Source: an uncultured Clostridia bacterium (lineage in GTDB: Bacteria; Bacillota; Clostridia; TANB77; CAG-508). Taken from it: DNA of 35,455 nucleotides. Position 1 is the stretch's first letter, and each line of letters begins with the position of its first letter. The stretch spans positions 1-35,455 of the forward strand of contig CANQLH010000021.1 of assembly GCA_947624655.1 (NCBI GenBank). Direction: 5' to 3'. This document shows, piece after piece, positions 1 to 35,455 of this stretch. Made by a program: the position numbers and the translations under genes. The notes below the pieces were generated by a model, which saw only the letters and a program-made list of their open reading frames with translations, searched no databases and was not told the DNA's origin.

Positions 1-506
1 CACCTAATCAAGCTGAACTTCAATTCCCTTAATTTTTTCCACCATTTTTTGTCCACTTTATTGACTATGGTCCATTTCTGCTCTTTTAATGGTTTCTTAG
101 GTTCGTTTTTATTCGTATCTCCTACAACCTGTTCAAGTGCGTTAGATATTGCTACAGTATCAGTACCTTTAAAAAATAAGTTAAAATCATTTGTCTGCTT
201 ATTTTTAACGACAGAAAAGTCTATTCCAAAGCGTTTTAATTTAGCTGTCATTTGCTTAATATCAATATTAGATACAGGAATACTGTCTAACGCGACATTC
301 TGCTTAGAAAGTTCTTTAAGAGATTGTTTTCCTTCTTTTAAATTATTCTTTTCTGTGTTAATATTGCCAGTTTTTGAATTATCTGTCCTTGTAAGGAGAA
401 AATTATTGAGTCCTCTAATAGCCGCAAGAATAACATCAGCAGTAATCAGAGCTGCTTTAGAAGTTATTTGTAAAACAGTTTGTGCTGTTTCTTCTCCTGT
501 ACCCAT
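1..506 (-). CDS. PcfB-like (DUF3801) conjugation protein, 3' end cut by window edge
   Basis: Reads leftward from an ATG at 506 behind an AAGGAGT ribosome site that overlaps the ssb stop codon. It begins MGTGEETAQTVLQ and shows a hydrophobic N-terminal helix (about residues 15-35), a polar linker, then the alpha/beta part containing MTAKLKRFGIDFSVVKNK, typical of the PcfB/DUF3801 family. PcfB proteins act with the VirD4-type coupling protein and normally sit directly upstream of it, and virD4 lies at the other end of this window in the matching orientation. The frame is open to base 1, so the true end is unseen. Close to the edge another frame reads VEKIKGIEVQLD and then stops, which looks more like a natural C-terminus. 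A frameshift or sequencing error in the A-runs near positions 15-45 is possible. Family assignment rests on pattern recognition. Confidence 0.75.
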   Translation of the reverse strand, partial: MGTGEETAQTVLQITSKAALITADVILAAIRGLNNFLLTRTDNSKTGNINTEKNNLKEGKQSLKELSKQNVALDSIPVSNIDIKQMTAKLKRFGIDFSVVKNKQTNDFNLFFKGTDTVAISNALEQVVGDTNKNEPKKPLKEQKWTIVNKVDKKWWKKLRELKFSLIR

Positions 507-511
507 AATAA

Positions 512-874
512 TCACTCCTTACTTTCAAAAGCTCTTTGATAATCCTCTAAAGACTTTGGCTTTGGTTCTTCGTAATACCATTTTTTAATGTTAAGAGCCA
601 CATCATACTTGGTATTTCCCACTTTGTCTGTATATTTAGAGGACTCCATACGACCATTAACGCAGATTTTATTGCCTTTTTTTAAGTTGGTATATATTAG
701 TTCGGCACTAACGCCGAAACTAATACAGGATATAAAGTCAGCTGGTCTTGCTCCGTCGTCTGTTTTATAATCTCTTGGTACTGCAATACGAAATTTGCAA
801 TATTGTTTTTCATCTTTTCCTGTAAAAATAATATCAGTACATATATACCCGATAAAAGAAACTTCATTCAGCAT
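512..874 (-). CDS. ssb: Single-stranded DNA-binding protein
   Basis: A 120-residue OB-fold SSB. It starts MLNEVSFIGYICTD, has the central FRIAVPRDY strand and the later KKGNKICVNGRMES segment typical of SSBs, and lacks the long acidic C-terminal tail of housekeeping SSB. I chose the ATG at 874 over an in-frame GTG three codons earlier, because that GTG lies inside the AAGAAGGTG ribosome site. It coats the single strand that arrives or leaves during conjugation and protects it during complementary-strand synthesis. It lies between accessory gene 893-1324 and the PcfB-like gene, probably in the same transcript. Its first 7 codons and ribosome site are duplicated at about 1537-1570. Confidence 0.9.
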   Translation of the reverse strand: MLNEVSFIGYICTDIIFTGKDEKQYCKFRIAVPRDYKTDDGARPADFISCISFGVSAELIYTNLKKGNKICVNGRMESSKYTDKVGNTKYDVALNIKKWYYEEPKPKSLEDYQRAFESKE

Positions 875-892
875 ATTTATCACCTTCTTTTA

Positions 893-1324
893 TTATCGGT
901 CATCACGGCCGCTTCTGTTTTTTTGTTGTTCCTGAGTTTGAGCCTTTTCTGCTGCCTTTTCTGCATTTTGTCTTTCGGCTTTTTGTTGACAATCTGAAAT
1001 CTTTTCAGATAAAGAAGATTTTGAAGGTTGCTGCTGTATTTCGTTTTGTCTGTAAAATTCATCAAGGTCAACATCAGAATAAATTGTTGCATTTTGAATA
1101 GGTTCAGCAATATCATCAATAATATCATGAAAATATCCCTTAATTCTTAATGACGAATTTGAAAACTCAATGATACAATGACCATTTTCATCAACACTAT
1201 CCATATCAACAGAAATTAAATTTTTAAGCCTTGCTTGTTCTTCTTTTTTTGATAATTCAGACCATTTTCTGCCGATAAGACTTTCGGCAGTTTCTCTTTT
1301 CATCAATTCATTTTCATTGGGCAT
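893..1324 (-). CDS. Unknown accessory protein with shared C-terminal tail
   Basis: A 143-residue soluble protein with no family I recognise. A strong AAAGGAGGTC ribosome site precedes the ATG at 1324. The N-terminal two thirds contain NLISVDMDSVDENGHCIIEF, a short beta-rich stretch, and an acidic segment. The last ~45 residues are low-complexity, Gln/Lys/Ala-rich and begin LSEKISDCQQKAERQNAEKA. This tail is almost identical, at DNA level too, to the end of the protein at 1572-2387, and related to the ends of the proteins at 13515-16337 and 16737-17348. The gene sits just upstream of ssb. The function is unknown; the tail suggests it belongs to a set of element-encoded accessory proteins. Confidence 0.75.
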   Translation of the reverse strand: MPNENELMKRETAESLIGRKWSELSKKEEQARLKNLISVDMDSVDENGHCIIEFSNSSLRIKGYFHDIIDDIAEPIQNATIYSDVDLDEFYRQNEIQQQPSKSSLSEKISDCQQKAERQNAEKAAEKAQTQEQQKNRSGRDDR

Positions 1325-3308: not shown

Positions 3309-3331
3309 TACATCATACTCAAAAGAAAAAA

Positions 3332-4810: not shown

Positions 4811-4814
4811 AAAT

Positions 4815-9101: not shown

Positions 9102-9187
9102 AAAGATTGTCTCCTTTCTTACAAATTTTTATTAAAATACAGTTATATTACGGTCTATCTCTTATACGCATAGTTATCCCCTTTCTT

Positions 9188-9250
9188 GTAACTCGCTATT
9201 TGTTGGCCGCAACTTTCCGATGAAAAGTTTCAGCTGAAAAAACGAGTTAC
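9188..9250. repeat. GTAACTC/GAGTTAC hairpin element, copy 1
   Basis: A 63-bp imperfect hairpin bounded by GTAACTCG and CGAGTTAC, 87 bp upstream of the adhesin start codon in a 350-bp gap. It belongs to the dispersed family also seen at 16588, 16654, 17677, 22850, 32609 and 32692. The core differs from the other copies but contains GGCCGCAACTTT facing AAAGTTTCAGCTG. It would lie in the leader of the pilus mRNA if transcription starts farther right. Confidence 0.75.
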
Positions 9251-9278
9251 ATTTAGAATTAAAAATTATTTATGATAT

Positions 9279-9315
9279 AAAAAAAGACAGAGCCTTGACC
9301 CTGTCTTTGTTTTTA
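9279..9315 (-). terminator. Rho-independent terminator after gene 9447-9767
   Basis: Stem AAAGACAG/CTGTCTTT with a short GC-bearing loop region, followed on the minus strand by a run of seven T residues. It closes the 11043-9447 operon and separates it from the pilus operon starting at 9101. Apart from the neighbouring hairpin and this terminator, the 9102-9446 gap shows nothing else clear. Confidence 0.8.
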
Positions 9316-9446
9316 TTTACTATAAAAAAGAAATTTCCCTATTGCTATAGAATTCCTATTACTGTAAACAGTAAACTTTTTAAATATTCTTTTTTAATAA
9401 CTTTCTTTTTAATGAAAATCATAGTCTTTTTATCCTCCAGTTCTTA

Positions 9447-9767
9447 TTAAATTTCATACAAAGGAAATTCATCAATGCTAACCCACATTTCGTCTGTTAG
9501 TTCACCTTTTTTTAACGCTTCACGAATAATCTTTGGAACACATCTTTCGCGATGTAAATAAATTTTAACATCTTCAAATTCTTTATAGTATTCAAGGGTT
9601 CTTATATCAATAACAGGAATAACTCTTTTTTTATCAATATCCGCAACGGTGTACCAATATGTAAGTGGATATTCCTTTATAATTGTATAAATTCTAATGT
9701 TTTTATATTTATAAAACATTGTTCCTCTAGTACAGTCTAACCCTAATTCTTTTGTGTAATCTACCAT
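9447..9767 (-). CDS. Unknown small soluble protein
   Basis: A 106-residue product if started at the ATG at 9767, which has GAGAAAGGAAAAC seven bases upstream. A longer in-frame start at 9794 lacks a comparable site and would overlap the previous gene. Sequence features: VDYTKELGLDCTRGTMFYKY at the start, then alternating beta-like strands (YWYTVADIDKKRVIPVI) and an acidic C-terminus. No signal peptide or membrane segment is present. I do not recognise a family. It is the last gene before the terminator at 9279-9315. Confidence 0.6.
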   Translation of the reverse strand: MVDYTKELGLDCTRGTMFYKYKNIRIYTIIKEYPLTYWYTVADIDKKRVIPVIDIRTLEYYKEFEDVKIYLHRERCVPKIIREALKKGELTDEMWVSIDEFPLYEI

Positions 9768-9787
9768 TTGTTTTCCTTTCTCTGCGT

Positions 9788-10222
9788 TTACCAAAAAGTA
9801 TAAGTGTATTTAGTTTCTACAAAACAGTTTAAAAGATTAAAATATTGATTTTTTTCAACCGTTAACGTTGTAGGTTTTACTTTATAATCGCTAACAACTG
9901 TAGTATTTCTATCAGGTGTGATTTCATGAACTAAAATAGTTCCGTACGTATCTTTTGCAGAGAATAGGATTTTGATATTAATTTCGTCATTTAATTGTTT
10001 ATATTCCTTATAACTTGTTACTGAGTATGTTTTAGAATTAATATCGTTTATTTTTATACTTAAAGAACTTGTAAAACTATAATTAGCGATTGTAAAAAAA
10101 ATTATAGCAATCAAAAGAGTCCCTATAGCTGAAATAAGATGAGTATATTGAGGAATATATCTAAATGAAATTAAAAAAAGTATAAAACACACAATTGAAA
10201 ATATTAAAAATAGCCAAGCCAT
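9788..10222 (-). CDS. Unknown membrane protein
   Basis: A 144-residue protein with two N-terminal membrane helices (residues about 3-20 and 30-50) and an extracytoplasmic C-terminal domain of ~90 residues (KINDINSKTYSVTSYKEYKQ, then a beta-rich stretch ending KYTYTFW). An AGGACGGTGA sequence precedes the ATG. It lies between the second sortase (10252-11043) and the 106-residue unknown, with short gaps, so all three are probably cotranscribed. No family is recognised. A role at the envelope with the sortase is only inferred from position. Confidence 0.6.
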   Translation of the reverse strand: MAWLFLIFSIVCFILFLISFRYIPQYTHLISAIGTLLIAIIFFTIANYSFTSSLSIKINDINSKTYSVTSYKEYKQLNDEINIKILFSAKDTYGTILVHEITPDRNTTVVSDYKVKPTTLTVEKNQYFNLLNCFVETKYTYTFW

Positions 10223-10251
10223 TTTTTCACCGTCCTAATATAAAATAAAAA

Positions 10252-11043
10252 TTATATTCTCGCACAGATAACATAATATCTGTTAAATCCTCCTGCACCG
10301 TCTGAAATACAGGTAAGCATAGTGAGTAAATCTTTACCCGAATTGATAAACACCGCCTCAGACTGAGTTGCTTTGCAAACCTTAGTATCAATAACTTTGT
10401 AAGTCATTGTGTACCAATAGTTTGTAAGCTCTACCGTATCGCCCTTATTTAACTTTCTGATATTATCAAAGAAAATCCTGCCAATGTAACCTGTATGACC
10501 TGCAAGCACACAATTTGTACTTTCACCGCCTAAAGGCAGTGAGGTATAAGTAAGATGTGCAGCTCCATAACTCATATTACTGTCATTTGCTCCTAAATAG
10601 ATAGGCAGTTTCATTCCGATTGTCGGTGCGGAAACATATCCATATATTCCAGTGTAAATACCATAATCAGCAAGATTAAGCACCGGATTAACATATGATG
10701 TTTCATCAACGAGCAGTGAGTTTTGATTATCCTTTAAATTATTATTGTAAGCATTGCTGTCTTGATATAATCGTTCGAGATCTGGAGCAAAAAGCAACGG
10801 TATGTAGCTTGTACGATTTCCTGAGCTGTCAATCGGGTAACCCTCATCATCAATCTCGCCTTTTTTTATTGCTTCCTCAAATGTTTCATCTTCAACAGCG
10901 TTTTCAATTTGTTTATCGAATTTTTCTATTTCAGCGTTGGCAATCTGAGTTCCGATAAAATTAGAAATTAGCGGAAACAATATCAGACTGAGTCCTGTAA
11001 CAATAAGAATTATCGAAATTGTTGTAATCAGTTTTTTTCGCAA
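10252..11043 (-). CDS. Second sortase
   Basis: A 263-residue membrane-anchored sortase. The TTG at 11043 is chosen because AGGTGG lies six bases before it. The longer ATG at 11061 would put the ribosome site inside a terminator stem. Layout: an N-terminal membrane helix (residues about 6-26), a long acidic linker, then the catalytic domain with PIYLGAN, His in LAGHTGYIG, Cys about 245 in LTMLTCISD and Arg about 255 in GFNRYYV. It has no C-terminal membrane helix, unlike the sortase at 2475-3308. It may anchor the pilus base or the lipoprotein-cluster products. The subclass is not certain from sequence alone. Confidence 0.88.
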   Translation of the reverse strand: MRKKLITTISIILIVTGLSLILFPLISNFIGTQIANAEIEKFDKQIENAVEDETFEEAIKKGEIDDEGYPIDSSGNRTSYIPLLFAPDLERLYQDSNAYNNNLKDNQNSLLVDETSYVNPVLNLADYGIYTGIYGYVSAPTIGMKLPIYLGANDSNMSYGAAHLTYTSLPLGGESTNCVLAGHTGYIGRIFFDNIRKLNKGDTVELTNYWYTMTYKVIDTKVCKATQSEAVFINSGKDLLTMLTCISDGAGGFNRYYVICARI

Positions 11044-11061
11044 ATAAAACCACCTGCACAT

Positions 11062-12727: not shown

Positions 12728-13522
12728 ATGATATATGGATACGCAAGAGTAAGCACTAAACAACAAAATCTCGAACTACAGCTTAACAATTTAAAAAAAT
12801 ATGGCTGTGATAAAATCTTTGCAGAAAAGGTAACTGGTGACTATCGCAAAAGAAAAGACAGAGAGCAACTTGATGAATTGCTCTCTGTCATAAAAACAGG
12901 TGATACACTTGTTGTTTGGAAACTTGACCGTCTATCAAGAACTTTGCTTCAAACTGTATCTATTCTTGAATTTCTTTTAAAAAATGATATTTCGTTTGTA
13001 TCTATAAATGATAATTTTGATACAAAGACTTCATATGGTAAAGCGTTATTATATATGGCAGCAGTGTTTGCACAACTTGAAGTAGATTTAATATCTGAAC
13101 GAACATTAGAGGGACTTGAAGCTGCACGACAAAACGGTCATTATGGTGGACGCCCTTCTATTTCAAAAGTTACTCAATCTAAGATGTATCAAATGTATTA
13201 TAGCGGTGATTATACAATAAGTGAAATTTGTAGTGCTTGCAACATAACACAAACGACCCTATATAATTATCTAAAACGCTTCAATGAAAACCCAGATGAA
13301 CGCCCCGAAATAATTGCTTTTGATAAACCACCGAAAAAAGAAAAAATATACCCGTCACGCACCGTAGGCAGACCCACATTAAGTGAAACACTTATATCAA
13401 AAGTACAAAGTATGTATTCTGACCCTCAATATAGCGTAAATGATATAATTAAAAAAACGGGTCTTTCACGTTCAACAATATATAAATATGGCAAACAAAA
13501 AAGGAGTGATAAAAATGCCTAA
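12728..13522 (+). CDS. Serine recombinase (resolvase/invertase type) with two helix-turn-helix domains
   Basis: A 264-residue protein whose catalytic domain (residues 1-140) opens MIYGYARVSTKQQNLELQL, with nucleophile Ser9. It also carries KLDRLSRTLLQ and the AQLEVDLISERT helix of the resolvase/invertase family. The normal 45-residue C-terminal HTH occurs twice: GGRPSISKV...ITQTTLYNYLK (about 140-185) and VGRPTLSET...LSRSTIYKYGK (about 213-258), so the protein is about 75 residues longer than a Hin/Tn3-type enzyme. Likely roles are resolution of plasmid dimers or inversion of a segment; it is too small for a large serine integrase. Its stop codon overlaps the start of the next gene. Confidence 0.92.
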   Translation: MIYGYARVSTKQQNLELQLNNLKKYGCDKIFAEKVTGDYRKRKDREQLDELLSVIKTGDTLVVWKLDRLSRTLLQTVSILEFLLKNDISFVSINDNFDTKTSYGKALLYMAAVFAQLEVDLISERTLEGLEAARQNGHYGGRPSISKVTQSKMYQMYYSGDYTISEICSACNITQTTLYNYLKRFNENPDERPEIIAFDKPPKKEKIYPSRTVGRPTLSETLISKVQSMYSDPQYSVNDIIKKTGLSRSTIYKYGKQKRSDKNA

Positions 13523-16337
13523 TAATGATAACAATGAAGTATCAAAAATGCTTGTAGATGGTGTGAAATCTGTCTTTACTTCAAATCGATACATAGCATA
13601 TCTTGCATTTTTAAGTAAATTTCATAATTATTCTTGGAGAAATACAGTATTAATATTCTCACAAAGACCAGAAGCTACACTCGTTGCAGGGTTTAATGAC
13701 TGGAAAAATAAACATAAAAGATATGTAAAAAGAGGAGAAAAAGCGATAAAAATTATCGCCCCTTATTTTAAGAAAATCCAAACAGAAGTAGATGTTATTG
13801 ATAACAATGGTAAAGCTGTTATTGTTGATGGAAAACATCTTACAGAAAAAAAAGAAATTGAAAAAATGCTTTTCAAATCCGTTTCTGTTTTTGATGTATC
13901 GCAAACTGACGGTGAACCTCTACCACAATTAACTTATGAACTGCAAGATACAGTAAAAAATTATCAAGAACTTTTTACCGCAATATCATCATTTGCTGAA
14001 TATCCTATTGAATTTGAAGATATGCGCGGAGGTGAAAAAGGTTATTTTGATTTTATCGAACAGCGTATTGCTATTAATAACGGTATGTCAGAATCCCAGA
14101 CGATAAAAACAGCAATACACGAACTTACACATTCAAGGCTTCATAATCCGAACATAAATAGTGATGAGCAACATAAAATATCTAGAGCAAATGAAGAAGT
14201 TCAAGCTGAAAGTGTTGCTTTTGTAGTAGCAAATCATTTTGGCATTGATACTTCTGACTATTCATTTGACTATATAGCAAGTTGGAGTACTGGAAAAGAG
14301 CTTGAGGAATTACACGAAAATCTTGAAATTATACAAAAGGAAGCAAATATAATTATACAAGGCATTGAAGAACAGTATCAGCAGCTACTCAAAGATAGGA
14401 ATGTAGAAATTAACAACGCCGATAAAGGCATTGACCGAGATATGGACGGTATTGATGATAGCCGTGACAGCTCCTACACAGCTAAAATTCCTGTTCCTGA
14501 TTTATTATCAAAACAACAAATGGATACTCTTGAGCAAACCTTCTATTATTATTATCAAGGCGAAAAAATGCTTCCTATTAGTTTGTCACAAGCTGAGCTG
14601 TTCCAAGAATATGTAGATATTCCTTTATATCGCCTATATCCCAACGGTTCAAAGGCAATTGTCGAAAAAAACGAAAAGCTTTATGATGAAGCACTTTACG
14701 ATTCTGGAAATCCAAAATATGCTAATGGTGATTTCTTTGGTGTAGAAGCTACGGCTTGGGAAACAGTTTACAATCAATTTATTGAACCTCAAATATTCAT
14801 AGAATGGTCTGAGAGCAACAAAGTTCCAGAGAAACAGCTTCTTCCCCTTGTTGAAGCAAACACCTTGTTTGATTCTGCTGATTTAGCCACCGTAGAAAAA
14901 TATGCTGGACGTGGTTATTATGACAAAACAAAATATGCGTTATTCTATACCGAGGAAAACACTGCTAAGATTATGGTTGATAGACAGGATTTCGGGGACG
15001 GAGATGGATCTTTAATAAATCATATAAAACTCATTAATCCCGGTTTAGGTAACTATTTAGATTGCCATAATGATATTACTAAATTATATGGTACTCCTCA
15101 TATAAATACGGATAACCTTAACTCTATTCGTGATGAGCTGAATACTCAGCCTATTTCGTCTGAAACGCTTATAAATATCCATAGTAAGTTGATTAATGAA
15201 GTCAAAGCAACAAAACAGCAATATCATAAAACTGAGCAACTTCAAAAGCCAAATAAAGAGAAGAAATACAGTAAAGAGGAAAATGAACGTATCGTTGCAG
15301 ATATTAAAAACAGTATTCTAATTGAGGATTATGCTCAAAAAATAGGTTTTACTGTACTGAAAGCAGGTAGTTATTATACCCTCAAAGAACACGACAGTGT
15401 GAGAATTGACCCACGAAAAAACAGATTTGTACAAAACTCCACTGGGGTTAAAGGTAGTATTATTGATTTTGTTATGCACTTTGAAAACCTTGATAAAGCT
15501 ACTGCCATTGATAAATTGGCAAAATACATAGGTTCAGACATAAGACACTCCCCTACTCCTATTCCACATCAGCAAAGACCTAAAACTGAGAATAAATCTG
15601 TACCACTTGTTTTGCCGGAAAAAGCAAAAACTATGCGTAATATTTTTGCCTATCTCATTAATACAAGAAAAATTGACTCTGAAATTGTGAGTCAATGGGT
15701 AAAAAACGGTAACTTATATCAAGATATTCATAATAATTGTGTTTTTGTTACTTTCAATAAAGACGGCGTTCCAGAGTTTGCTTCACAGCGCGGAACAAAT
15801 ACATCACATAAATTCAGAGCTGATATTGCGGGTAGTAATTATAACACTTGCCATTTCATCAATAATAATGCTAATACTCTTGTTATTGGTGAAGCGGTAA
15901 TAGATGTTATGAGCGTTCAGACAATTCTTAAAGCTAATGGCAGAGATATAAATAAATACAATTATCTATCCTTGAACGGTACAACAAAAACCCACGCGGT
16001 CATTAACGCTTTGCAGAACAGTAATACTGATACAGTCGTACTTGCTACAGATAATGACAATGCCGGTAAAGAAGCGAGAAATACTCTTAGAGCATTAATT
16101 TCTGATTTCAATACAAATATCAAGGTTATTGATTACGTTCCTCAGAACGAAAAAGATTGGAATGCAGAGCTTGTTGCAAATGTTCAACGTGAAACCGCCG
16201 CCTTATCTGAATCAAAACAAAAATTATCTGACAAGATTTCAGATTGTCAGAACAAGGCAGATATTCAAAATAAGAGCCTTGAACACAACAAACAACAGGC
16301 TATTTCTCAAAAGAGAAATACACTTGATATTTCATAA
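13515..16337 (+). CDS. Polyvalent ArdC-like / metallopeptidase / Toprim primase protein with shared tail
   Basis: A 940-residue protein; AAAAGGAGTGA precedes the ATG at 13515, which overlaps the recombinase stop by 8 nt. Domains: an ArdC-type N-terminal DNA-binding/antirestriction domain (about 10-95, SWRNTVLIFSQRPEATLVAG); a zinc metallopeptidase-like domain with HELTH at 202-206 and the later EVQAES; polyvalent-protein modules (about 320-500); a CHC2-less primase-associated domain (about 590-680, KGSIIDFVMHFENLDKA); and a DUF3991/Toprim domain (about 700-890) with VIGEAVIDVMS and LATDNDNAGKEA acidic residues. The final ~35 residues are the shared tail LSDKISDCQNKADIQN. Such proteins protect and prime incoming DNA in the recipient. 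Related ArdC and TraC proteins are known to be transferred between cells. Confidence 0.88.
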   Translation: MPNNDNNEVSKMLVDGVKSVFTSNRYIAYLAFLSKFHNYSWRNTVLIFSQRPEATLVAGFNDWKNKHKRYVKRGEKAIKIIAPYFKKIQTEVDVIDNNGKAVIVDGKHLTEKKEIEKMLFKSVSVFDVSQTDGEPLPQLTYELQDTVKNYQELFTAISSFAEYPIEFEDMRGGEKGYFDFIEQRIAINNGMSESQTIKTAIHELTHSRLHNPNINSDEQHKISRANEEVQAESVAFVVANHFGIDTSDYSFDYIASWSTGKELEELHENLEIIQKEANIIIQGIEEQYQQLLKDRNVEINNADKGIDRDMDGIDDSRDSSYTAKIPVPDLLSKQQMDTLEQTFYYYYQGEKMLPISLSQAELFQEYVDIPLYRLYPNGSKAIVEKNEKLYDEALYDSGNPKYANGDFFGVEATAWETVYNQFIEPQIFIEWSESNKVPEKQLLPLVEANTLFDSADLATVEKYAGRGYYDKTKYALFYTEENTAKIMVDRQDFGDGDGSLINHIKLINPGLGNYLDCHNDITKLYGTPHINTDNLNSIRDELNTQPISSETLINIHSKLINEVKATKQQYHKTEQLQKPNKEKKYSKEENERIVADIKNSILIEDYAQKIGFTVLKAGSYYTLKEHDSVRIDPRKNRFVQNSTGVKGSIIDFVMHFENLDKATAIDKLAKYIGSDIRHSPTPIPHQQRPKTENKSVPLVLPEKAKTMRNIFAYLINTRKIDSEIVSQWVKNGNLYQDIHNNCVFVTFNKDGVPEFASQRGTNTSHKFRADIAGSNYNTCHFINNNANTLVIGEAVIDVMSVQTILKANGRDINKYNYLSLNGTTKTHAVINALQNSNTDTVVLATDNDNAGKEARNTLRALISDFNTNIKVIDYVPQNEKDWNAELVANVQRETAALSESKQKLSDKISDCQNKADIQNKSLEHNKQQAISQKRNTLDIS

Positions 16338-16351
16338 AGGAGGAAGAAGAA

Positions 16352-16591
16352 ATGACAGTAACACTTACAGTAGAAGAACTCACCGCACTTGCAAGCGCAA
16401 AACAACCAAATAGAACGTCTGCTATCGTTTTTTTAGAACAAGGATTACCCTTTTACGGAGAGGACGAAAAAGAGCTTGTGGACTTTACCAATGTCCTTAT
16501 TGACAAACTCAAAGCCATGACTGATACTCAGTATTCTGGTTTAAATTTCGATACTGCTATTGACATTATAGAATCGGAACAAGAACTGTAA
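16352..16591 (+). CDS. Unknown small acidic protein
   Basis: A 79-residue acidic product after a perfect AAAGGAGGAAG ribosome site, 14 nt behind the polyvalent protein gene and so in the same transcript. It begins MTVTLTVEELTALASAKQ and contains FLEQGLPFYGEDEKELVDF; predicted mostly helical. No family is recognised. The stop codon TAA lies inside the first bases (GTAACTC) of a hairpin element. Confidence 0.7.
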   Translation: MTVTLTVEELTALASAKQPNRTSAIVFLEQGLPFYGEDEKELVDFTNVLIDKLKAMTDTQYSGLNFDTAIDIIESEQEL

Positions 16592-16645
16592 CTCAAAATC
16601 AAAATTGGCCATTGAAATATCGCCACTATTGAAATTTTGAATTAC
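16588..16645. repeat. GTAACTC/GAGTTAC hairpin element, copy 2 (type A)
   Basis: A 58-bp imperfect hairpin. Its reverse complement matches the copy at 32609-32666 at about 54 of 58 positions. It starts at the stop codon of the preceding gene. Confidence 0.85.
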
Positions 16646-16653
16646 AAAAATAA

Positions 16654-16705
16654 GCAACTCAAAACCGAGTTTATGTCCGGGAGAACGTCCATTTTTTTGA
16701 GTTAC
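16654..16705. repeat. GTAACTC/GAGTTAC hairpin element, copy 3
   Basis: A 52-bp copy bounded by GCAACTCAAAA and TTTTTTGAGTTAC with an unrelated core, 8 bp after copy 2. The inner part pairs poorly, so this may be a decayed or different subtype. Confidence 0.65.
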
Positions 16706-16706
16706 A

Positions 16707-16738
16707 AAAAGGCAGCACAATTAAGTGCTGCCTTTTTT
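16707..16738. terminator. Bidirectional terminator between convergent genes
   Basis: Stem AAAAAGGCAGCAC/GTGCTGCCTTTTTT with loop AATTAA. A-run on one side and T-run on the other suit termination in both directions, for the recombinase transcript and for toxN. Confidence 0.9.
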
Positions 16739-17348
16739 AGAGCTCCTGCCCTTTATCTCGTTTAGGTTGTTTATTCTTGGCTGTTTCCTGATTTACCTTG
16801 TCAGCCATTTGTTGAGCCGATTTTATTTTATCTGATAATACCTGATTACGACTTTGCGCTTGAGCTTTATCCTTAGTATATTCTACACACTTCTGTTCAA
16901 GTAATGCAAAATTACAAAACATCTTTTTTTCAAATTTATTTGGCGAAGTAATTCTCTTATTATAAATATGATTAGCTCTACTCTGTATATTATCCCAATC
17001 TTTACTACATTCTATATACTGCGAAATCAATATATTTCTATTTCTATCACTATTTATATCAAAACTTATTAAAGCAGAACTTGGAACAGGTATCATATTA
17101 TTTAATCCGATTATTCCAAATCTACCACCTTTAATTTTGTAAATATGTAAGTTTGTTTTCAATGTTCTGTGACTTGGTCTTGGGTGTTCTAATGGTGCAA
17201 AGTAATTTTGTCCATTTACATTTAATACTACTCCAACATAAGGACGATTTTGGTTCATCACATCAGTATAATTTTCATTGTATTGTACTCTACTATCAAA
17301 TTTATACAAATATTTTATGTAATCAATATCCACTTTATAAATCTTCAT
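16737..17348 (-). CDS. toxN: ToxN/AbiQ-type endoribonuclease toxin of a type III toxin-antitoxin system, with extra C-terminal tail
   Basis: A 203-residue RNase. The first ~165 residues follow the ToxN/AbiQ pattern: MKIYKVDIDYIKYLYKFDSRV, PYVGVVLNVNGQNYFAPLEH with the Pro/Ser-His segment RPSHRT, FGIIGLNNMIPVPSSAL, and the later MFCNFALLEQKC. ToxN cuts its own antitoxin transcript into repeats and is held inactive by them; on phage attack, free toxin degrades RNA and aborts infection. ToxN-type proteins are usually about 170 residues. The extra ~35 at the end (VLSDKIKSAQQMADKVNQET) is the tail shared with other proteins here. GAGGT precedes the ATG. Upstream lie a terminator and the repeat RNA, exactly the type III layout. 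Confidence 0.93.
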   Translation of the reverse strand: MKIYKVDIDYIKYLYKFDSRVQYNENYTDVMNQNRPYVGVVLNVNGQNYFAPLEHPRPSHRTLKTNLHIYKIKGGRFGIIGLNNMIPVPSSALISFDINSDRNRNILISQYIECSKDWDNIQSRANHIYNKRITSPNKFEKKMFCNFALLEQKCVEYTKDKAQAQSRNQVLSDKIKSAQQMADKVNQETAKNKQPKRDKGQEL

Positions 17349-17400: not shown

Positions 17401-17619
17401 TCAAAAGACTAATTTATTCTTACTTTAAACCTATGAAAAGGTCAGGCAAAGAATTTCCTCTTTAGCAGACTGAGCTGCACTCTTACTTTAAACCTATGAA
17501 AAGGTCAGGCAAAGAATTTCCTCTTTAGCAGACTGAGCTACACTCTTACTTTAAACCTATAAAAAGGTCAGGCAAAGATTCTCCTCTTTAATTAGTCCAG
17601 AGATAATTATTATCTCGTC
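17401..17619 (-). ncRNA. toxI: ToxI-like antitoxin repeat RNA
   Basis: Transcribed leftward from the promoter at 17626-17654. It contains three tandem copies of a 63-nt unit (starting at 17421, 17484 and 17547; the third is partial, to about 17590). Each carries CTTTAAACCTAT and GGTCAGGCAAAGA, with few changes between copies. In known type III systems the toxin processes such repeats into units that fold as pseudoknots and inhibit it. The position upstream of a terminator and toxN supports this. The 63-nt spacing is longer than I expect for ToxI. A short palindrome GAGATAAT/ATTATCTC lies near the 5' end. Confidence 0.85.
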
Positions 17620-18173: not shown

Positions 18174-19826
18174 CTATATATTTATTTCATCTTTATTTTT
18201 ATGTATTTTCAATCTTTCTTGAATTTGTCTTGCTTCATCACTCATATTAATAAATTCATCAACCGTATTTTGAGCATTGTTAAGTTTTTCAATGCGTTCA
18301 AATATAGCATTTGCACGTTCTTCAATATCTTTAATTTTCTTTATATTACTCTTAATTTGTAATATAAGTTCGTCTTTACTTGTATTTTCAGGGTCAATAC
18401 CAATTTTATTTAACTGTTCTAAAGCATAATTAAAACTTGCTAAATCAAGTTTATGTTTATTTTCATATTTTTTTCTTGTAAGTTTAGCAAATTTTAACCT
18501 ATCAAGTTCTTGTTTGACTGGCAGATATTTCTGATATGCAACAATTAATTTACCAATATTTTTTATATCTGCTACTGTATCATCAAGTTTCATAAGTGTA
18601 TGCTTTATTTCATACGACTTATCTTTAAGTTCGGTTATACGTTTATTATAATCGCTATAGTAAATAACTCCTTCTGACCTACTATAAGCAATAGCTTGAG
18701 CAGCTTTATGCAAAATTTCTTTTCTTTCATTTCTTCTGTTATTAAGATATTCAGATAACGGCACTTCTCCGTATTCATTCTGTTGTACAGGAGAAATGCT
18801 ATTGTAAGCTGATAATAACTTTTCTGATGATATTGTTCCGGCAGTTGTTAAGTCATTATTTAAAATTGAATATTCATTTGCAGTCAAATGTGCAACAACA
18901 TCTTTATTATCATTAAGTAATGCTGTTTCAGCATTAAAATATACTAAATAATCTTGATTTGGAACATTCAAAATAAATCCATCAGTAAGAGTTTTAAATA
19001 TAAACTTTTTATCAATAGTTATAGTTGTATTCTTTTCAACACTCTTTGCCTTTTCAGATTTAATGCGCTCTATAATTTTTTCTTTTGTGTAGTTCTCGCC
19101 AATGCGTTTTCCTCTTACATAACGCTCCTGTTCCGGCGCTCTAAACGCAATATGCTTACCCTCTTTAACATCAAATCCTGATTTTTTCATCTGCTGAACA
19201 AATTCAGTATAAGACTTTACTTGAGGTATCAATTCATCAATCTTATTTTTTATAGTATCTTTCCACGTAATACCGCCATTCTTAGTAATTTGCCATTCTT
19301 TATAAGATTTACCCACACCTATATTTTGAACAACTGACAATCCATTTTCTTTGCAAATTTTATCGCTTATTTCTCTCATTTTTGCAACAGTTTTATATGG
19401 TTCACTTCTAAATTTTTTGTAATCTTTAAAAGATGTAGAATTAAAAATTATATGATTATGGATATGTCCTTTGTCAATGTGAGTTGCAATTACATATTCG
19501 TGATTTCCTTGTAAAAATTCATCTGCAAATTTTTTTCCAAGCTCATGTATTTGTTCTGGAGTTACTTTTTCATTATCTGATATTGCAAAACTCTGTACCA
19601 TATGATAAGCAACATTATCTGCTCCACCTGTCTTTGTATAATCCCCTTTTATTTCTTTTGCTAAATTCGACGTTAAATTAAATTCAATAGCTGCTGTTTC
19701 TGTTGCACAACCAAAAGACGATACCAATTGTGTACCGTCTGGCATAGTAGTTTTTTCAGGATTTATAATATAATCTATAGCTTTTTCTAAAGTTGATTTG
19801 ATAGCGTGGATTTTAGCAATAGCCAT
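18174..19826 (-). CDS. Relaxase (MobA/VirD2-type)
   Basis: A 550-residue relaxase that nicks oriT and pilots the strand into the recipient. The N-terminal domain has the family start AIAKIHAIKSTLEKAIDYI, and the metal-binding histidine motif HIDKGHIHNH at residues 116-125, followed by KFRSEPYKTVAKMR. The catalytic Tyr is probably Tyr19 in AIDYIINP (inference). The C-terminal half (about 380-545) is long helical coiled coil, possibly for coupling to VirD4. It overlaps mobC by 40 nt, indicating translational coupling. The Mob subclass is not certain; it is the type common on clostridial mobile elements. Confidence 0.92.
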   Translation of the reverse strand: MAIAKIHAIKSTLEKAIDYIINPEKTTMPDGTQLVSSFGCATETAAIEFNLTSNLAKEIKGDYTKTGGADNVAYHMVQSFAISDNEKVTPEQIHELGKKFADEFLQGNHEYVIATHIDKGHIHNHIIFNSTSFKDYKKFRSEPYKTVAKMREISDKICKENGLSVVQNIGVGKSYKEWQITKNGGITWKDTIKNKIDELIPQVKSYTEFVQQMKKSGFDVKEGKHIAFRAPEQERYVRGKRIGENYTKEKIIERIKSEKAKSVEKNTTITIDKKFIFKTLTDGFILNVPNQDYLVYFNAETALLNDNKDVVAHLTANEYSILNNDLTTAGTISSEKLLSAYNSISPVQQNEYGEVPLSEYLNNRRNERKEILHKAAQAIAYSRSEGVIYYSDYNKRITELKDKSYEIKHTLMKLDDTVADIKNIGKLIVAYQKYLPVKQELDRLKFAKLTRKKYENKHKLDLASFNYALEQLNKIGIDPENTSKDELILQIKSNIKKIKDIEERANAIFERIEKLNNAQNTVDEFINMSDEARQIQERLKIHKNKDEINI

Positions 19827-20116
19827 ATGTCACCTATTTTTTCATTAATTTCTTGTAAATCCTCTTTATATATATTTCCAGTCTGATTTGTTCGTCTTGC
19901 AATCTGATTAATATTATTACCAATTCGATTGATTGCAATAGTAACATCTTTAATTGCTGATACATCTGTATTAATGACATAACCGTCTATTATCATTTTA
20001 CGATAAAAGGCACCTTTATTTTTTATACCAGTTTGTTCCTGCTTTTTATCTATGAGTTCCTTTTCTTCTGCACTCACATCAAATTTTATTTGAAATGGAC
20101 GGTTTCTGTTAGCCAT
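19787..20116 (-). CDS. mobC: MobC-like relaxosome protein
   Basis: A 109-residue accessory protein with GAAAGGAGTC before its ATG. The N-terminal part (RPFQIKFDVSAEEKELIDKK) resembles a ribbon-helix-helix, and the C-terminal half carries the MobC signature RIGNNINQIARRTNQTG. MobC proteins bind oriT and help the relaxase open it. The gene overlaps the relaxase start by 40 nt and lies right beside the likely oriT. Confidence 0.9.
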   Translation of the reverse strand: MANRNRPFQIKFDVSAEEKELIDKKQEQTGIKNKGAFYRKMIIDGYVINTDVSAIKDVTIAINRIGNNINQIARRTNQTGNIYKEDLQEINEKIGDIWLLLKSTLSNQL

Positions 20117-29715: not shown

Positions 29716-32238
29716 CTAACTTACTTTTACTTCTTCCGGTTTGGTTGTAAGAACCTTATAGATACTTGTATCAGCTGGGAATTTATCTATAAAGGGTACG
29801 GTATTTTTACCTGCAACAATCAATCCTTGACCCTCAGACGAATTAGTAATATACTTTAACTGACGGTCTGACAAGCCGAAAATATGGGCAAGTTCTTGAC
29901 GGTCGGAAGTAGCATTATTAAGCATAATTGCAAATTCTGTATTACTCAGAATACGTCTTGCTGTATCTGACAGCAGAAGATCTTCGACGTTCTGAGTAAT
30001 CCCTGTAGGAATAGCGCCCCATTTTCTTGCACGTTTCCATAGCTCAAAGAAGAATTGCGCTGAATATTCATCATTAAAAAATAAGTAAAACTCGTCAAAA
30101 TACAACCAAGTTCTAATACCTTTTTCCCTGTTCTCTGTAATCTTATTCCAAATAAAATCAAGACAGATAAGCATGCCGAGAGTTTTCATCTGTTTTCCTA
30201 AATCTCTTACATCAAAGCATATTATACGGTTGTTGAGATTAACTGAGCTTTGGTGTGAAAATAGATTAAGATTTCCTGTAACATAGCGTTCAATTGCTAC
30301 GGCAATATCTTTTGCTTCCGTTTCAGGCTGCTGCTTAAGTACATTCCAAAAATCCGGGAATGTAGGCATTTTCTTATTTTTATTATTTGGATTTCCGTTA
30401 AAATAGGGAAGATAGGTTAGATTAACACAACGGTCAATAATTGATAACGCAGTCTGACTTAATCCCTGTTTACCACCTGCAATAAGTTGTATCATTGAGA
30501 TAATAAAATCAGATTTAAGCTGTATAGGATTATCTTTGTCAGCGTAGTTATCATTAATGTCAAATGGATTAATGTAGTTATCGTGTGAAAAGTCAATAAA
30601 TACATTCTGACCACCCAATAAACTTGTAACCGGACTATATTCACGTTCAGGGTCGAGAATAATAATACTATCATTAGTAGATAAAAATACGTCAATAATC
30701 TCACGTTTACAGGTAAATGATTTACCGGAACCCGGAGTACCAAGAACAACTCCGTTTGGATTTTTAAGTGTTTTGCGGTCAAATGATAATACATTGTGTG
30801 ACTCGTAGTTGAGTCCATAATATATACCGCTCGGCTGGAACAACTCCTGTGTTGTGAATGGAATAAACATTCCGGCAGAAGCAGAAGTCAAGCGACGAGT
30901 TATATATTTTTCAAGTTGGTTATTGCCAAGCAGCAACGAACTGTTTAATCCCTCTTTTTGGAGGAGATTAGCCCTGACAATATCACAACCGTGTTGTCTG
31001 CCAATACCTTGAACGCGCTCTACATTATCCTTGAGTTTTTCTGCTGACTCAGCAATAACCGTAATGACAATTGTTGATTTAAACATTTTCATTCCGGCAT
31101 TGTTTATAGCCTCTCTGAGTTCTTCCGCTTCGTCAATTGCATACTGCACTTCGCGCGGTATCATTGGTATATCGTTGTATTTTGCTGCTTTACGGTTAAT
31201 CTCAAGCACTCTCGTTTCCATTTTGGATAATTGTGAGTCCACTAAATCAAGTGCCGACGCTTTATCAACCGAATTAAGATGTAAATTAATAGACATCTGA
31301 CAATTAAGGTCCGATAAGTCTTTGATAAACTTGTCTGATATTGTCGTAGGAAACTCTTTTATAAAAAGAACACAACCAAACATATCATTAAATTCAAAAT
31401 GATTTCGTGTAAACTCAAGGCGTTCCGGTGCTATATAATCTTTAGTTGTTAATCCGCTATAGAGCAAATTTGAATACTTAAAATTAAAATTGTCAAATGG
31501 ATGGAAAAAGTCATATAAGGCTAAACAACGAGATACACCGGATAACTCCTCAGACCTACAACCTATATTTTTTAGGTTGTGCTGTGTATCAGCTATTAAA
31601 CGTTGAAAATCCCTTTGAGCGTGTTCATAGCTGTCTGCTTTAATTGTAACGACAATATATTTGTCTGAAACAATATTATGGGTGCTTTTAACCGACTGCT
31701 GTAAAAGTATCTGATTTCTCTCACGTCTGAGATGGTTAAAATTGTCATTTTCATCTTTCAAAAGCATTGATTTTTTAAATGCGTCCTCATTGATAAAACG
31801 ATTTATAATACTTATCTGAATCTTTACATCAGGACTGTAATATTCAAGCACCTCACAATACTTCTGGAAAATGTCTAATTGGTCATCTTTGTTTGCGCTT
31901 TGATAATTAATGTCATCAAAACCTATAACAACGCTGTATTCTCCGTTTCCTAAATCAGCTATACCATTTTCATAAAGATAATCATAGCCGATTGCCCCCT
32001 GTACTGACTTAGCTGCCTTTTTTATTTTTACCGTATCAGAATTGGTGTTGCCGTTGTTAGGCGATTTCTTTTTACTGTAAAATAGGCTATTTTTTATCAG
32101 CTGCAAGTTGCTTTCGGATTTCTTTTCTTTTTTCTTTAAGCTGTTTTTTTGTTCCGACTGTGTATCTAAACTGTGTTTCGATACATTCATTTCCGGGTTT
32201 AGCTTTTCTGTTATTCCGCTTTCTTTTTCCATTTTCAT
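29716..32238 (-). CDS. virB4: VirB4-type conjugation ATPase
   Basis: An 840-residue cytoplasmic ATPase that powers the type IV secretion channel. The N-terminal VirB4 domain includes FDDINYQSANKDDQLDIF (about 107-125) and FGCVLFIKEFPT. The P-loop GTPGSGKS is at residues 500-507, within LKNPNGVVLG. Walker B is WLYFDEFYLFF (about 690-700), and GITQNVEDLLLSD follows. The C-terminus reads DTSIYKVLTTKPEEVK. The gene begins inside prgI and overlaps it by about 150 nt in another frame. The extra Lys/Ser-rich N-terminus (residues 1-75) lies in that overlap; a later start is possible. Confidence 0.95.
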   Translation of the reverse strand: MKMEKESGITEKLNPEMNVSKHSLDTQSEQKNSLKKKEKKSESNLQLIKNSLFYSKKKSPNNGNTNSDTVKIKKAAKSVQGAIGYDYLYENGIADLGNGEYSVVIGFDDINYQSANKDDQLDIFQKYCEVLEYYSPDVKIQISIINRFINEDAFKKSMLLKDENDNFNHLRRERNQILLQQSVKSTHNIVSDKYIVVTIKADSYEHAQRDFQRLIADTQHNLKNIGCRSEELSGVSRCLALYDFFHPFDNFNFKYSNLLYSGLTTKDYIAPERLEFTRNHFEFNDMFGCVLFIKEFPTTISDKFIKDLSDLNCQMSINLHLNSVDKASALDLVDSQLSKMETRVLEINRKAAKYNDIPMIPREVQYAIDEAEELREAINNAGMKMFKSTIVITVIAESAEKLKDNVERVQGIGRQHGCDIVRANLLQKEGLNSSLLLGNNQLEKYITRRLTSASAGMFIPFTTQELFQPSGIYYGLNYESHNVLSFDRKTLKNPNGVVLGTPGSGKSFTCKREIIDVFLSTNDSIIILDPEREYSPVTSLLGGQNVFIDFSHDNYINPFDINDNYADKDNPIQLKSDFIISMIQLIAGGKQGLSQTALSIIDRCVNLTYLPYFNGNPNNKNKKMPTFPDFWNVLKQQPETEAKDIAVAIERYVTGNLNLFSHQSSVNLNNRIICFDVRDLGKQMKTLGMLICLDFIWNKITENREKGIRTWLYFDEFYLFFNDEYSAQFFFELWKRARKWGAIPTGITQNVEDLLLSDTARRILSNTEFAIMLNNATSDRQELAHIFGLSDRQLKYITNSSEGQGLIVAGKNTVPFIDKFPADTSIYKVLTTKPEEVKVS

Positions 32239-33899: not shown

Positions 33900-35303
33900 T
33901 TATATATCCTCATCAAGTTCAATAGAAATAATTTGATTAGTATTATCAAAAAATTTCTCTATTTCAAGCTCGTTTCTACGCTCAAAATTAAAAATTCTTG
34001 CTCCACCGTCTGCTAAATATTTATAGCGTGGGTGCTTTTCAAGAGGATATTTTTTACTTATAAATGGGTCAAGACCGGACAACATAACAACACACTTATC
34101 GCCCGGAATTTTCTCCATTTCGGAAGGGTCAAGCAAATCACGACCCAGTGTACTATCTTGCATACCATAAGAACCGTGACTTCCCTTAGTTTCATTTGTT
34201 TGCCTTTGGTCAATTGTCATTTTACCAACTGACTTACTTACGTATTCATTGGTTGACTGCTCTTTACCGCCTAAATAAACGAATGTATCACAGTTACCAA
34301 CAATTGTTTTCCAGTTTTGCTTGTCCATTGCTTCAATTTGCGTAAGTGTTTGAAATATAAGCAATACTGATATTCCATAGGAACGCATTGTAGAAATGTA
34401 TCTTTGCAAATTTGGTATTTGTCCGATATTAGCTATTTCGTCACCAATTATTTGTATTGGTATCGGACATCTTCTGTCTTTTTGTTGTTTTGCAAAATCA
34501 TAAAGACGTTCAAGCATTAACTGGTATAAAATACATACAATAAAATTAAAAGTAGTATATGTTTCCGGGACTATCAGAAATAATGCCGTTTTCTCTTTTG
34601 CAAGAAGCCCTAAATCTAATTCATCATCAGACATAAGTGTTCTTACATCATCAATAGCAAACGGAGCAAGTCTTACACCAAGCGAAACAAGTATGCTCTT
34701 TGCTGTTTTACCGCTTGCAAGTTTAAATGTTTTGTACATATAACAAGCAAGACAATTAGGTTGCTTTTCTTCAAGCTCCTGAAACATAATGTCAAGAGGT
34801 GATACAAAATCTTCATCATCTTCGCGTGCGGCAGCAACACTCATAAGGTCAAGGACAGAATTAATATTCTTATCTTCATTTCTGCACTCAGAAACAATAT
34901 AAGCAAATAAAGCTGTTAGCAATGCACGTTCTGCTTTTACCCAGAAATCATCTCCTGAATTTACTTGTGCTTCGTGAGAGGACGTATTAGCAATAAGATT
35001 ATCAACAATTATCAAAATATCTTTTTCTGTTTTTATGTACGCAAACAGATTAAATTTATCTGAATGTGCCATATCTTCCAAATTGAGAACCTTGATATTA
35101 TATCCACCTTGAACAGCAAGCATTTCACCACATTCGGCAAATAATTCGCCTTTAGGGTCAGTAATTACATATGATGTATTTAATTGACACAAATTTGGTT
35201 TTGCAATAAAACGACTCTTACCTTTACCAGAACCGCCAATGATAACAACATTTTTGTTTCTATTATGTAAAGGATTTGGCATTTTAGGCTCTAAACTTAA
35301 CAT
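33900..35303 (-). CDS. virD4: VirD4/TraG-type coupling protein, 5' end damaged or cut
   Basis: 467 residues from the first ATG. P-loop IIGGSGKGKSRF with AKPNL follows, then TDPKGELFAECGEML, and Walker B IQIIGDEIANIGQIPN. Later come LLIFQTLTQIEAM and MLSGLDPFISKKYPLEKHP. It carries the relaxosome to the channel. The same frame continues upstream of this ATG for about 28 codons with family-like sequence (WSTRKDIKPF, NPDNNIIFSATE), so the ATG is not the true start. Beyond that, family-like pieces appear in other frames (LDKTLHG, then LSQEFASITQKS), implying frameshifts at about 35370-35400. The N-terminal membrane helices are missing from the window. Confidence 0.9.
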   Translation of the reverse strand: MLSLEPKMPNPLHNRNKNVVIIGGSGKGKSRFIAKPNLCQLNTSYVITDPKGELFAECGEMLAVQGGYNIKVLNLEDMAHSDKFNLFAYIKTEKDILIIVDNLIANTSSHEAQVNSGDDFWVKAERALLTALFAYIVSECRNEDKNINSVLDLMSVAAAREDDEDFVSPLDIMFQELEEKQPNCLACYMYKTFKLASGKTAKSILVSLGVRLAPFAIDDVRTLMSDDELDLGLLAKEKTALFLIVPETYTTFNFIVCILYQLMLERLYDFAKQQKDRRCPIPIQIIGDEIANIGQIPNLQRYISTMRSYGISVLLIFQTLTQIEAMDKQNWKTIVGNCDTFVYLGGKEQSTNEYVSKSVGKMTIDQRQTNETKGSHGSYGMQDSTLGRDLLDPSEMEKIPGDKCVVMLSGLDPFISKKYPLEKHPRYKYLADGGARIFNFERRNELEIEKFFDNTNQIISIELDEDI

Positions 35304-35455
35304 TTCCGTAGCCGAGAATATTATGTTATTATCAGGATTACTGTGGTCTATAAACGGTTTTATATCTTTCCGTGTACTCCATGAAGCGTTTTGTCAAGTG
35401 CTTTTTTGAGTTATTGACGCAAATTCTTGTGAAAGTGCGAAAGTGCAAAGTGCAA

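Follow-up and report, generated by a model that had tools for sequence, protein, structure and literature searches.

A shared C-terminal tail on unrelated proteins of a clostridial conjugative element

Why should an RNA-cutting toxin, an ArdC-type polyvalent protein and two proteins without a recognised domain, all encoded on one conjugative element, end in the same short sequence? The question is raised by contig CANQLH010000021.1 (assembly GCA_947624655.1) of an uncultured Clostridia bacterium, a stretch of 35,455 nucleotides (nt) that we analysed at full length and call the window. It is part of a draft genome of 1.87 Mb (69 contigs, 92.5% complete) and carries a conjugative element with a relaxase, MobC, ParA, topoisomerase III, VirB4, PrgI, a VirD4-type coupling protein, SSB and PcfB. 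An earlier inspection of the letters, the sequence-only reading, had noted a common C-terminal tail on four proteins of this element (P1 to P4 below) and had proposed it to be a translocation signal or a docking tag for a partner such as PcfB/VirD4. Here we describe the tail, its relatives on other elements and the explanations that compete for it.

One tail on four unrelated proteins

Alignment and profile analysis of the C termini showed that P1, P2, P3 and P4 all end in one tail, in frame and at the extreme C terminus: SSLSEKISDCQQKAERQN... in P1 (896..1030, minus strand), LSLSDKISDCKQKAERQN... in P2 (1575..1709, minus strand), KQKLSDKISDCQNKADIQN... in P3 (16203..16334, plus strand) and NQVLSDKIKSAQQMADKVNQ...KGQEL in the ToxN protein P4 (16740..16859, minus strand). 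Common to the four is L-S-x-K-I, followed at fixed spacing by A and N; the motif of this subtype can be written S-[ILM]-x-[DEKN]-[KRQ]-[LIF]... A-[DE]-x-x-N, and the tail is a predicted helix that passes into a looser, Lys/Gln-rich end. An all-against-all BLASTP search with the last 60 residues of the 122 open reading frames (ORFs) of the window paired the tails at E values of 1.3e-8 (P3–P1), 2.7e-8 (P3–P2), 5.3e-8 (P2–P1), 1.4e-5 (P4–P1) and 1.1e-4 (P3–P4); the P4–P2 pair was not listed at 1e-3. In a shuffle test that left out P2, the pair score was reached by 0 of 1000 shuffles for P1–P3 and for P3–P4 and by 3 of 1000 for P1–P4, and a profile of the four tails found no fifth copy at E<=0.01 in the 69 contigs of the genome. 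BLASTP, shuffles and the genome search thus confirmed that four proteins share the tail, and Pfam bore out that the parts upstream of it are unrelated (ToxN in P4; ArdC-N, LPD25, DUF3991 and Toprim in P3; none over the cut-off in P1 and P2). On the four tails themselves no Pfam family exceeded the cut-off, hence no BID domain was detected.

P1 (893..1324, minus strand; 143 amino acids (aa)), encoded directly upstream of ssb, has no Pfam or NCBIfam family over the cut-off and no PHROG match at E<=0.01; a weak PADLOC match to LmuA (5.1e-5) covers residues 18-92. P2 (1572..2387, minus strand) has no Pfam family over the cut-off and matches PHROG 15773 (phrog_15773), a phage family of unknown function, at E 9.7e-15. 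Its AlphaFold model is of low confidence (pLDDT 66), and the helix and strand layout alone was taken from it: a beta-strand region of 8-residue repeats at residues 33-142, a second repeat block and a tail helix at 233-266. Two blocks of 24-nt repeats, of the DNIERPGP and YSHVEAYD types, lie within the gene, at window positions 1740-2217. For the polyvalent protein P3, the start previously placed at 13515 proved to be an internal ATG, and the ORF spans 13488..16337 on the plus strand; besides the four domains over the cut-off, metallopeptidase families score just below it.

The toxin offers the clearest view of the tail as an addition. P4 (16737..17348, minus strand) matches ToxN over residues 1-157 (PF13958, 5.7e-43) and resembles the solved structure 4ato in a Foldseek search (1.1e-11); in its AlphaFold model (pLDDT 92.8) the tail extends the last helix (147-192), with a looser end after it. 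Four solved ToxN and AbiQ sequences (4ato, 2xd0, 7d8o, 4glk) align only as far as P4 residue 159-169, and the tail is separate from the solved ToxN fold. Upstream of the gene, on the same strand, lie a ToxI-like antitoxin RNA array (17418..17590; a 63-nt unit repeated 2.7 times with 96% matches), its sigma-70-type promoter (17654-17626, 12/12 match) and, between repeats and toxN, a hairpin terminator (17400-17374). The locus thus has the ToxN domain, upstream tandem-repeat RNA and terminator of a ToxIN system; an Rfam search of the window returned no family at the gathering score. Compared with known ToxIN and AbiQ systems, the complete fold, repeat array, terminator and promoter are alike, and the window ToxN differs in about 40 added residues that bear the tail of the element.

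ToxN proteins had been expected to stop before such a tail, and they do. None of 50 other ToxN ORFs of the order was tailed by eye (one is a stop-cut fragment, one the genome's own second ToxN), the 50 being those with retrieved loci among the matches listed, which numbered more than 150 and came from 86 of 238 genomes; nor was any of 12 others in a phylum sample, which again included that second ToxN. The solved-structure alignments agree. The second ToxN of the genome is untailed, and its contig has no matches to eight proteins of the element. Two other kinds of ToxN ending were seen. In loci L068-L073, ToxN has about 370-390 aa and includes a C-terminal domain; Pfam, run on L069 alone, sees just ToxN. 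Two ToxN of one bacterial family (L291, L293) end in SDGRDR and GREDDR, without the helix motif; these ends recall the SGRDDR end of P1/P2 and the RGRDR end of a PcfB (L170).

Tails on related conjugative elements

To place the tail in a wider setting, related elements were gathered through relaxase searches and C termini were compared within each. Within these elements, unlike proteins share tails of a K-P-S-I-x-x-x-L type (the PSIR type). An iterated profile built from them, with no window sequences, picked up the C termini of SSB-like proteins, ArdA, ArdC, relaxases and polyvalent giants, and at no iteration did a reversed or shuffled sequence score below E 0.3. Across 80 relaxase loci, many of them near-identical, plus the window, the PSIR profile matched 92 of 9697 C termini at E<1e-3, with at least one in 63 of the 80 loci; among reversed C termini none reached this value (best 3.5). 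When 14 genomes selected by their relaxases were scanned in full, 12 gave matches. In the six single-contig genomes among these, 10 of the 13 matches at E<=0.01, and all 9 of those at E<=1e-3, lay within 50 kb of a relaxase, in zones that make up about 3 to 10% of each genome; five of these nine are of the seed tail types, whereas the remaining four, on three PcfB proteins and one large frame, are of other types. The sequence-only reading would have failed had the tail been a generic coiled coil with no preference for conjugative elements; as far as these counts go they do not refute it, since comparable tails are concentrated on such elements, and the tie of the tail to conjugation is well supported.

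Over all related loci, 142 of 14,180 C termini were tailed at E<0.01 by either profile, or 117 after merging identical last 150 residues, and these fall into ten upstream clusters. The largest (65 tailed members) holds ArdA/ArdC/YodL polyvalent proteins, as judged by Pfam on representatives, followed by a cluster without a Pfam family (35, including a 314-aa protein of plasmid pMG2200), a family SSB-like by eye (5), two DUF3801/PcfB clusters (4 and 1) and relaxases (3); RadC, ToxN and two unassigned singles make up the rest. Pfam detected ArdA, ArdC-N, M78, YodL, DUF3846, DUF4316, LPD domains, relaxase, DUF3801, RadC and ToxN on tailed representatives, and no recognised channel component was found among the clusters. 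The bearers comprise proteins for handling or protecting DNA that enters a cell, certain relaxases, PcfB and RNA-cutting toxins. PcfB is a partner of the coupling protein; the PcfB proteins of L177, L178, L286 and L288 are themselves tailed (E 2e-7 to 2e-4), which makes the earlier naming of PcfB as a partner apt. On pMG2200 the YodL giant ends EKPSIRAQL...KGLEVE (E 6.1e-8) and the 314-aa protein RPSIRKQL...KNELEV (E 0.005). Separately, a MobA/MobL-type relaxase (L288:28034-29614), encoded by a second mobile unit that lies within a Vescimonas element, ends KKQPIKEVLQDKTDEKK...QQDMEL, tail-like by eye.

On average, a tail is more like its companions on one element than like the tails of homologues elsewhere. 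Mean similarity was 0.484 between unrelated proteins within elements (58 pairs, 39 elements; a value lowered by a mis-anchored core in an L128 protein, 4699-5601, and raised by the P1/P2 duplicate pair), and 0.382 for homologous proteins on different elements (1507 pairs), over a background of 0.31; 65 of 77 proteins favoured their own element over the mean homologue, in a set of loci that are not mutually independent. The sharpest case is a second tailed ToxN, in L191 (Clostridia metagenome-assembled genome (MAG) SM1-B15.1; relaxase 52% identical to that of the window): its tail scores 0.89 against a neighbouring ArdC and 0.14 against the homologue in the set. This ToxN (PF13958, 2.5e-34) adjoins an ArdC/LPD25/YodL protein and both end SMKDRFAAAQAEADRRAAG, which makes L191, an unrelated element, an independent replicate of ToxN and ArdC sharing a tail type of their own. 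In L194, RadC, SSB-like-family and ArdC/YodL proteins end SMEDRFKNAxAEAEKRN or SIQDKISQAVKEAEKRN. Both loci are among those nearest the window's relaxase and represent a third tail subtype (SMxDRF). Homologues of P3 in L194, L191, L141, L142 and L128 carry the tail subtype of their own element and that in L280 is untailed, so that five of six compared elements are tailed, the five having been chosen for their tails.

How far the subtypes are linked in sequence is a separate matter. Before realignment, a profile of five L191/L194 tails ranked P2 first of the others at E 0.15 and P4 at 4, with P1 and P3 not listed; after realignment P2 (0.006), P1 (0.33) and P4 (0.38) were the first three of 13,191 other C termini and P3 was missed. 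P2 aligned to the SIQDKIS tail of L194 with a score above all 2000 shuffles. With the PSIR profile, the window tails were absent among matches at E<=10 in the iterated search and did not fall below 0.3 in the 80 loci plus the window. Homology of the window tails with the whole PSIR family was rejected, as a profile–profile comparison with 73 PSIR tails found nothing. What we claim is that the subtypes seem equivalent in position and context, with partial sequence support; common descent of all is not claimed.

Searches further afield yielded few candidates. A joint profile (A5) matched 8 of 391 genomes at E<=0.05; two of the eight, G188 and G389, are represented by the relaxases whose tail type had gone into the profile, and three, G520, G639 and G657, gave weak matches. 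Among them a CptN toxin (NF047359, 4.4e-56; G323, L280:9892-10539) has an extension of about 60 residues ending SIKDQITAAQVKADQHN (E 0.013) and lies 4 kb from an ArdC gene and about 21 kb from a VirB4 homologue. In G345 (L279:6168-8306), two similar neighbours, the first with Pfam Myb domains and a tail-like end, lie about 8 kb from a VirB4 45% identical to that of the window; they were rejected as firm members, the joint-profile value being 3.6e-5 and the shuffle counts 465, 23 and 2 of 2000 against P2, P3 and P4. The window tail found nothing outside the element in plasmids and phages by tblastn, and viral contigs matched neither the tail nor ToxN. Its profile gave four weak matches in 192 other kin-sample genomes (E 0.001-0.008, model positions 15-40 only), of which the one read, in L008, was rejected as a glycosyltransferase by eye, and nothing below E 1 in related regions L088-L136.

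Tails of this composition could be alike by chance, as low-complexity ends rich in Lys, Gln and Glu. In favour of this are the biased composition, the weak pair scores between subtypes and the helix amphipathicity: of 11 tails, P4 and the SIQDKIS tail of L194 are the only 2 that stand out from shuffles in it. The amphipathic-helix statistic was rejected as evidence. Set against it, no reversed or shuffled C terminus fell below E 0.01 with any profile (the best, 0.057, was a reversed one with the window's own profile), and the window pair scores were reached by 0 to 3 of 1000 shuffles. As a general account chance is hardly credible: unlikely for the four window tails and the PSIR family, possible for distant singles, for instance the G323 CptN and the Myb-like pair in G345.

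Origin and possible role of the tail

The DNA of the window records how tails move. A 141-nt repeat at 890..1030 is 95% identical to 1569-1709, and further repeats, of 38 nt (100%) and 51 nt (96%), carry the start of ssb and the end of a sortase gene; the copied ssb start and sortase gene end between P2 and P1 (1484-1572) have the look of a tandem-duplication scar. The P1 and P2 tails are one recent DNA duplication. P2 and P3 have 24 identical nt at the tail start, and this tail looks likewise to have been copied as DNA. P4 shares 9 residues of the 20-residue core with each other tail, and among these 9 the codons differ at 7 (against P3), 4 (P2) and 4 (P1). P4 has diverged, and its tail is older than the duplicate pair. 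From the P1/P2 duplication, the P2/P3 identity and the P4 codon differences, we conclude that the tail has been copied as DNA within the element, that at least one copy is old and that residues stayed the same as codons changed.

Such copying might be all there is: tail DNA could duplicate between neighbouring genes and replace their stop codons without any selected function. The P1/P2 duplication, the 24 nt of P2 and P3 and the L191 tail pair (53 of 57 nt identical) fit this idea. We nevertheless regard it as improbable, because 9 of the 20 core residues are common to P4 and P3 although 7 of these 9 have different codons (against P1 and against P2 it is 4 of 9), 85 of 256 identical tail residues over seven elements use different codons, and ArdC homologues are tailed in five of six compared elements, chosen as described above.

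On balance we think it somewhat probable that the tail serves Tn1549-type elements as a C-terminal tag, specific to each element, that docks its bearers on VirD4/PcfB for delivery. The original proposal is partly supported: tails are concentrated on conjugative elements, where PcfB, ArdA, ArdC, SSB-like proteins and a small number of relaxases bear them, the kinds of protein one would expect as partners or passengers of the coupling complex. From this we infer docking on that complex and delivery of the bearers. In this scheme, the tag would dock a bearer on the VirD4/PcfB complex, and the bearer would go to the recipient with the relaxase-bound strand. There the ArdC-Toprim protein, P1 and P2 may help the entering DNA, and ToxN, for which the element has an intact ToxI RNA locus, might arrive as a free endoribonuclease and arrest the recipient, or elements that compete, until ToxI is made from the incoming DNA. 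Spread of the tag to other genes of the element is by DNA copying, as the P1/P2 duplication and the P2/P3 identity show. A bolder version is possible, although we would sooner doubt it: the tail might be an address label matched to the coupling complex of each element and passed between genes by DNA copying, and by gaining it the type III toxins ToxN and CptN might repeatedly have turned into effectors between bacteria, reaching the recipient before their antitoxin RNA does.

The chief rival keeps the tail in the donor, as a scaffold that gathers its bearers at the relaxosome or at PcfB/SSB, for DNA processing or for holding ToxN near the transfer site, while only the relaxase crosses. PcfB is tailed in four loci at E<0.01, P2, P1, ssb and pcfB are consecutive at the left window edge, and 27 of 28 relaxase ends lack a tail, all of which speaks for this rival. 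Most bearers, however, are anti-restriction or single-stranded-DNA-handling proteins whose work lies in the recipient, and in another system, the F-type plasmid pED208, SSB, PsiB and Par proteins (ParA among them) are described as delivered passengers (PMC8406263). We judge a purely donor-side role unlikely.

Several observations weigh against delivery by a tag. Only 1 of 28 distinct relaxase ends read is tailed at E<0.01 (two more are in L139 and L140) and the window's own relaxase lacks the motif; most relaxases would dock otherwise, because 27 of the 28 ends and that of the window are untailed. Element specificity fades when the closest homologue is taken, with only 23 of 77 proteins favouring their own element, and likeness within elements is partly recent DNA copying. 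The bridge between subtypes is narrow: in the five-tail profile the best shuffled (0.69) and reversed (0.9) controls leave P1 and P4 little better, P1 is a duplicate of P2, and P3 was missed. Other window pairs against L191, L194, CptN and the G389 relaxase were reached by 6 to 447 of 2000 shuffles, and window tails against the pMG2200 PcfB tail by 26, 296 and 674 of 2000; that PcfB (RPSIRKVL...ERGLEL) has the motif by eye at E just 0.79. The comparison with the 73 PSIR tails was equalled by 80 of 200 column permutations, and one with a smaller PSIR set gave a weak P=0.017 in the expected register. Beside the tailed CptN, the ArdC is untailed, and the stretch of about 100 kb around it has no relaxase or VirD4 match. 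Finally, ToxN in the donor should be held in its ToxI complex, and R388 ArdC is described as needed through expression in the recipient, with export not required (PMC7213743). The premise that ArdC and TraC proteins are delivered is thus weaker than the sequence-only reading put it; pSa ArdC and RP4 TraC1 are described as transferred (PMC5512222).

The commonness of ArdC-type proteins with a metallopeptidase-like domain among the bearers could also point to turnover, with the tail as a degron or a cleavage site for such a domain. No conserved cleavage-like motif was found by eye and tail ends vary; relaxase and PcfB are tailed too, and the protease activity of R388 ArdC is reported to be dispensable (PMC7213743). 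This explanation strikes us as very improbable.

The host element and its precedents

The element belongs to a type that we take to be that of Tn1549, seen both in the window and on pMG2200. It has the run VirD4-VirB6-PrgI-VirB4-peptidase-DUF4315-topoisomerase III together with PcfB, relaxase and MobC, where VirB6, Maff2 and the peptidase are assigned from gene order and length only and the DUF4315-like protein scores under the Pfam cut-off. All on the minus strand lie PcfB (DUF3801; 1..515, PF12687 3.2e-18; the frame exits the contig edge and its own C terminus is not visible), SSB (512..883, PF00436 1.1e-17) downstream of P1, the relaxase (18174..19826, PF03432 4.7e-34), a MobC/NikA-like relaxosome protein (19787..20116, Pfam), a VirB4-type ATPase (TraG P-loop; 29716..32238, PF19044 2e-15) and the VirD4-type coupling protein (33900..35303, PF02534 1.7e-59). 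The region 2475-11061 is a cell-surface adhesion module: it encodes two sortases and a SpaA-type adhesin that has a thioester domain and seven SpaA stretches. pcfB and virD4 occupy opposite contig ends; VirD4, at the right edge, has 467 aa and is thus short beside the 602 aa of its pMG2200 counterpart, and AAAGTGC repeats lie at 35303-35455. The edges (1-515, 35303-35455) may reflect circular permutation or an assembly fault; a closed-circle contig was considered, and the frames at the two ends show no visible continuation into each other. A relaxase 80% identical to that of the window, with ParA and topoisomerase-like neighbours by eye, is found in L189 (JAUNWC010000025.1), a contig that ends in the relaxase and belongs to a MAG labelled Bacteroidota, perhaps misbinned.

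pMG2200 has the same gene order on one strand (VirD4, Maff2-like, VirB6, PrgI, VirB4, peptidase, DUF4315, topoisomerase III) and likewise PcfB, relaxase, MobC, a polyvalent protein and tails on at least two proteins. It differs in the placement and orientation of relaxase/MobC and the polyvalent protein and in its tail subtype, PSIR rather than LSDKIS; the window element adds ParA, sortases, the SpaA adhesin and ToxIN.

Short or compact C-terminal sequences on unlike substrates of one system have precedents in the type IV secretion systems (T4SSs) of Proteobacteria, among them the positively charged tails of VirD2, VirE2 and VirF and the XVIPCD of killing T4SSs. The likeness of the window tail to these is positional, with mixed charge (Lys/Gln/Glu) here and no sequence likeness claimed. 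For killing T4SSs, a C-terminal consensus has been used for effectors (PMC8262851). The closest parallel is VbhT of Bartonella schoenbuchensis, the FicT toxin of a FicTA module, which like the window ToxN is a toxin–antitoxin (TA) toxin on a conjugative element with a C-terminal module found also on a conjugation protein; it is delivered by conjugation, and independent fusions are described on other plasmids (PMC5675462). VbhT differs in that its module is a folded BID domain, present also on the plasmid's relaxase, with transfer shown (PMC5675462); the window has a short helix, type III toxins with RNA antitoxins, clostridial elements and an untailed relaxase. Polyvalent proteins with ArdC-N, ArdA, YodL, LPD25, primase and RadC domains, encoded on elements whose delivery is T4SS-like, have been proposed to be delivered with the DNA, with ArdC-N as a delivery header, unlike the C-terminal tail here (PMC5512222); the main text of that paper has no occurrence of 'C-terminal tail', 'extreme C', 'DUF4316' or 'low-complexity'. 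In the literature surveyed by title and abstract opening we found no account of a shared tail marking protein passengers of clostridial conjugative elements.

Elements of the Tn1549 type are known for carrying vanB. If the tail is a delivery tag, it would be a sequence handle with which to list the passengers of this common class of element, and it would give a predicted role to tailed families of unknown function, among them the 35-member cluster to which the 314-aa pMG2200 protein belongs. It would also offer a handle to test whether TA toxins reach recipient cells, as the FicT toxin does in Bartonella (PMC5675462).

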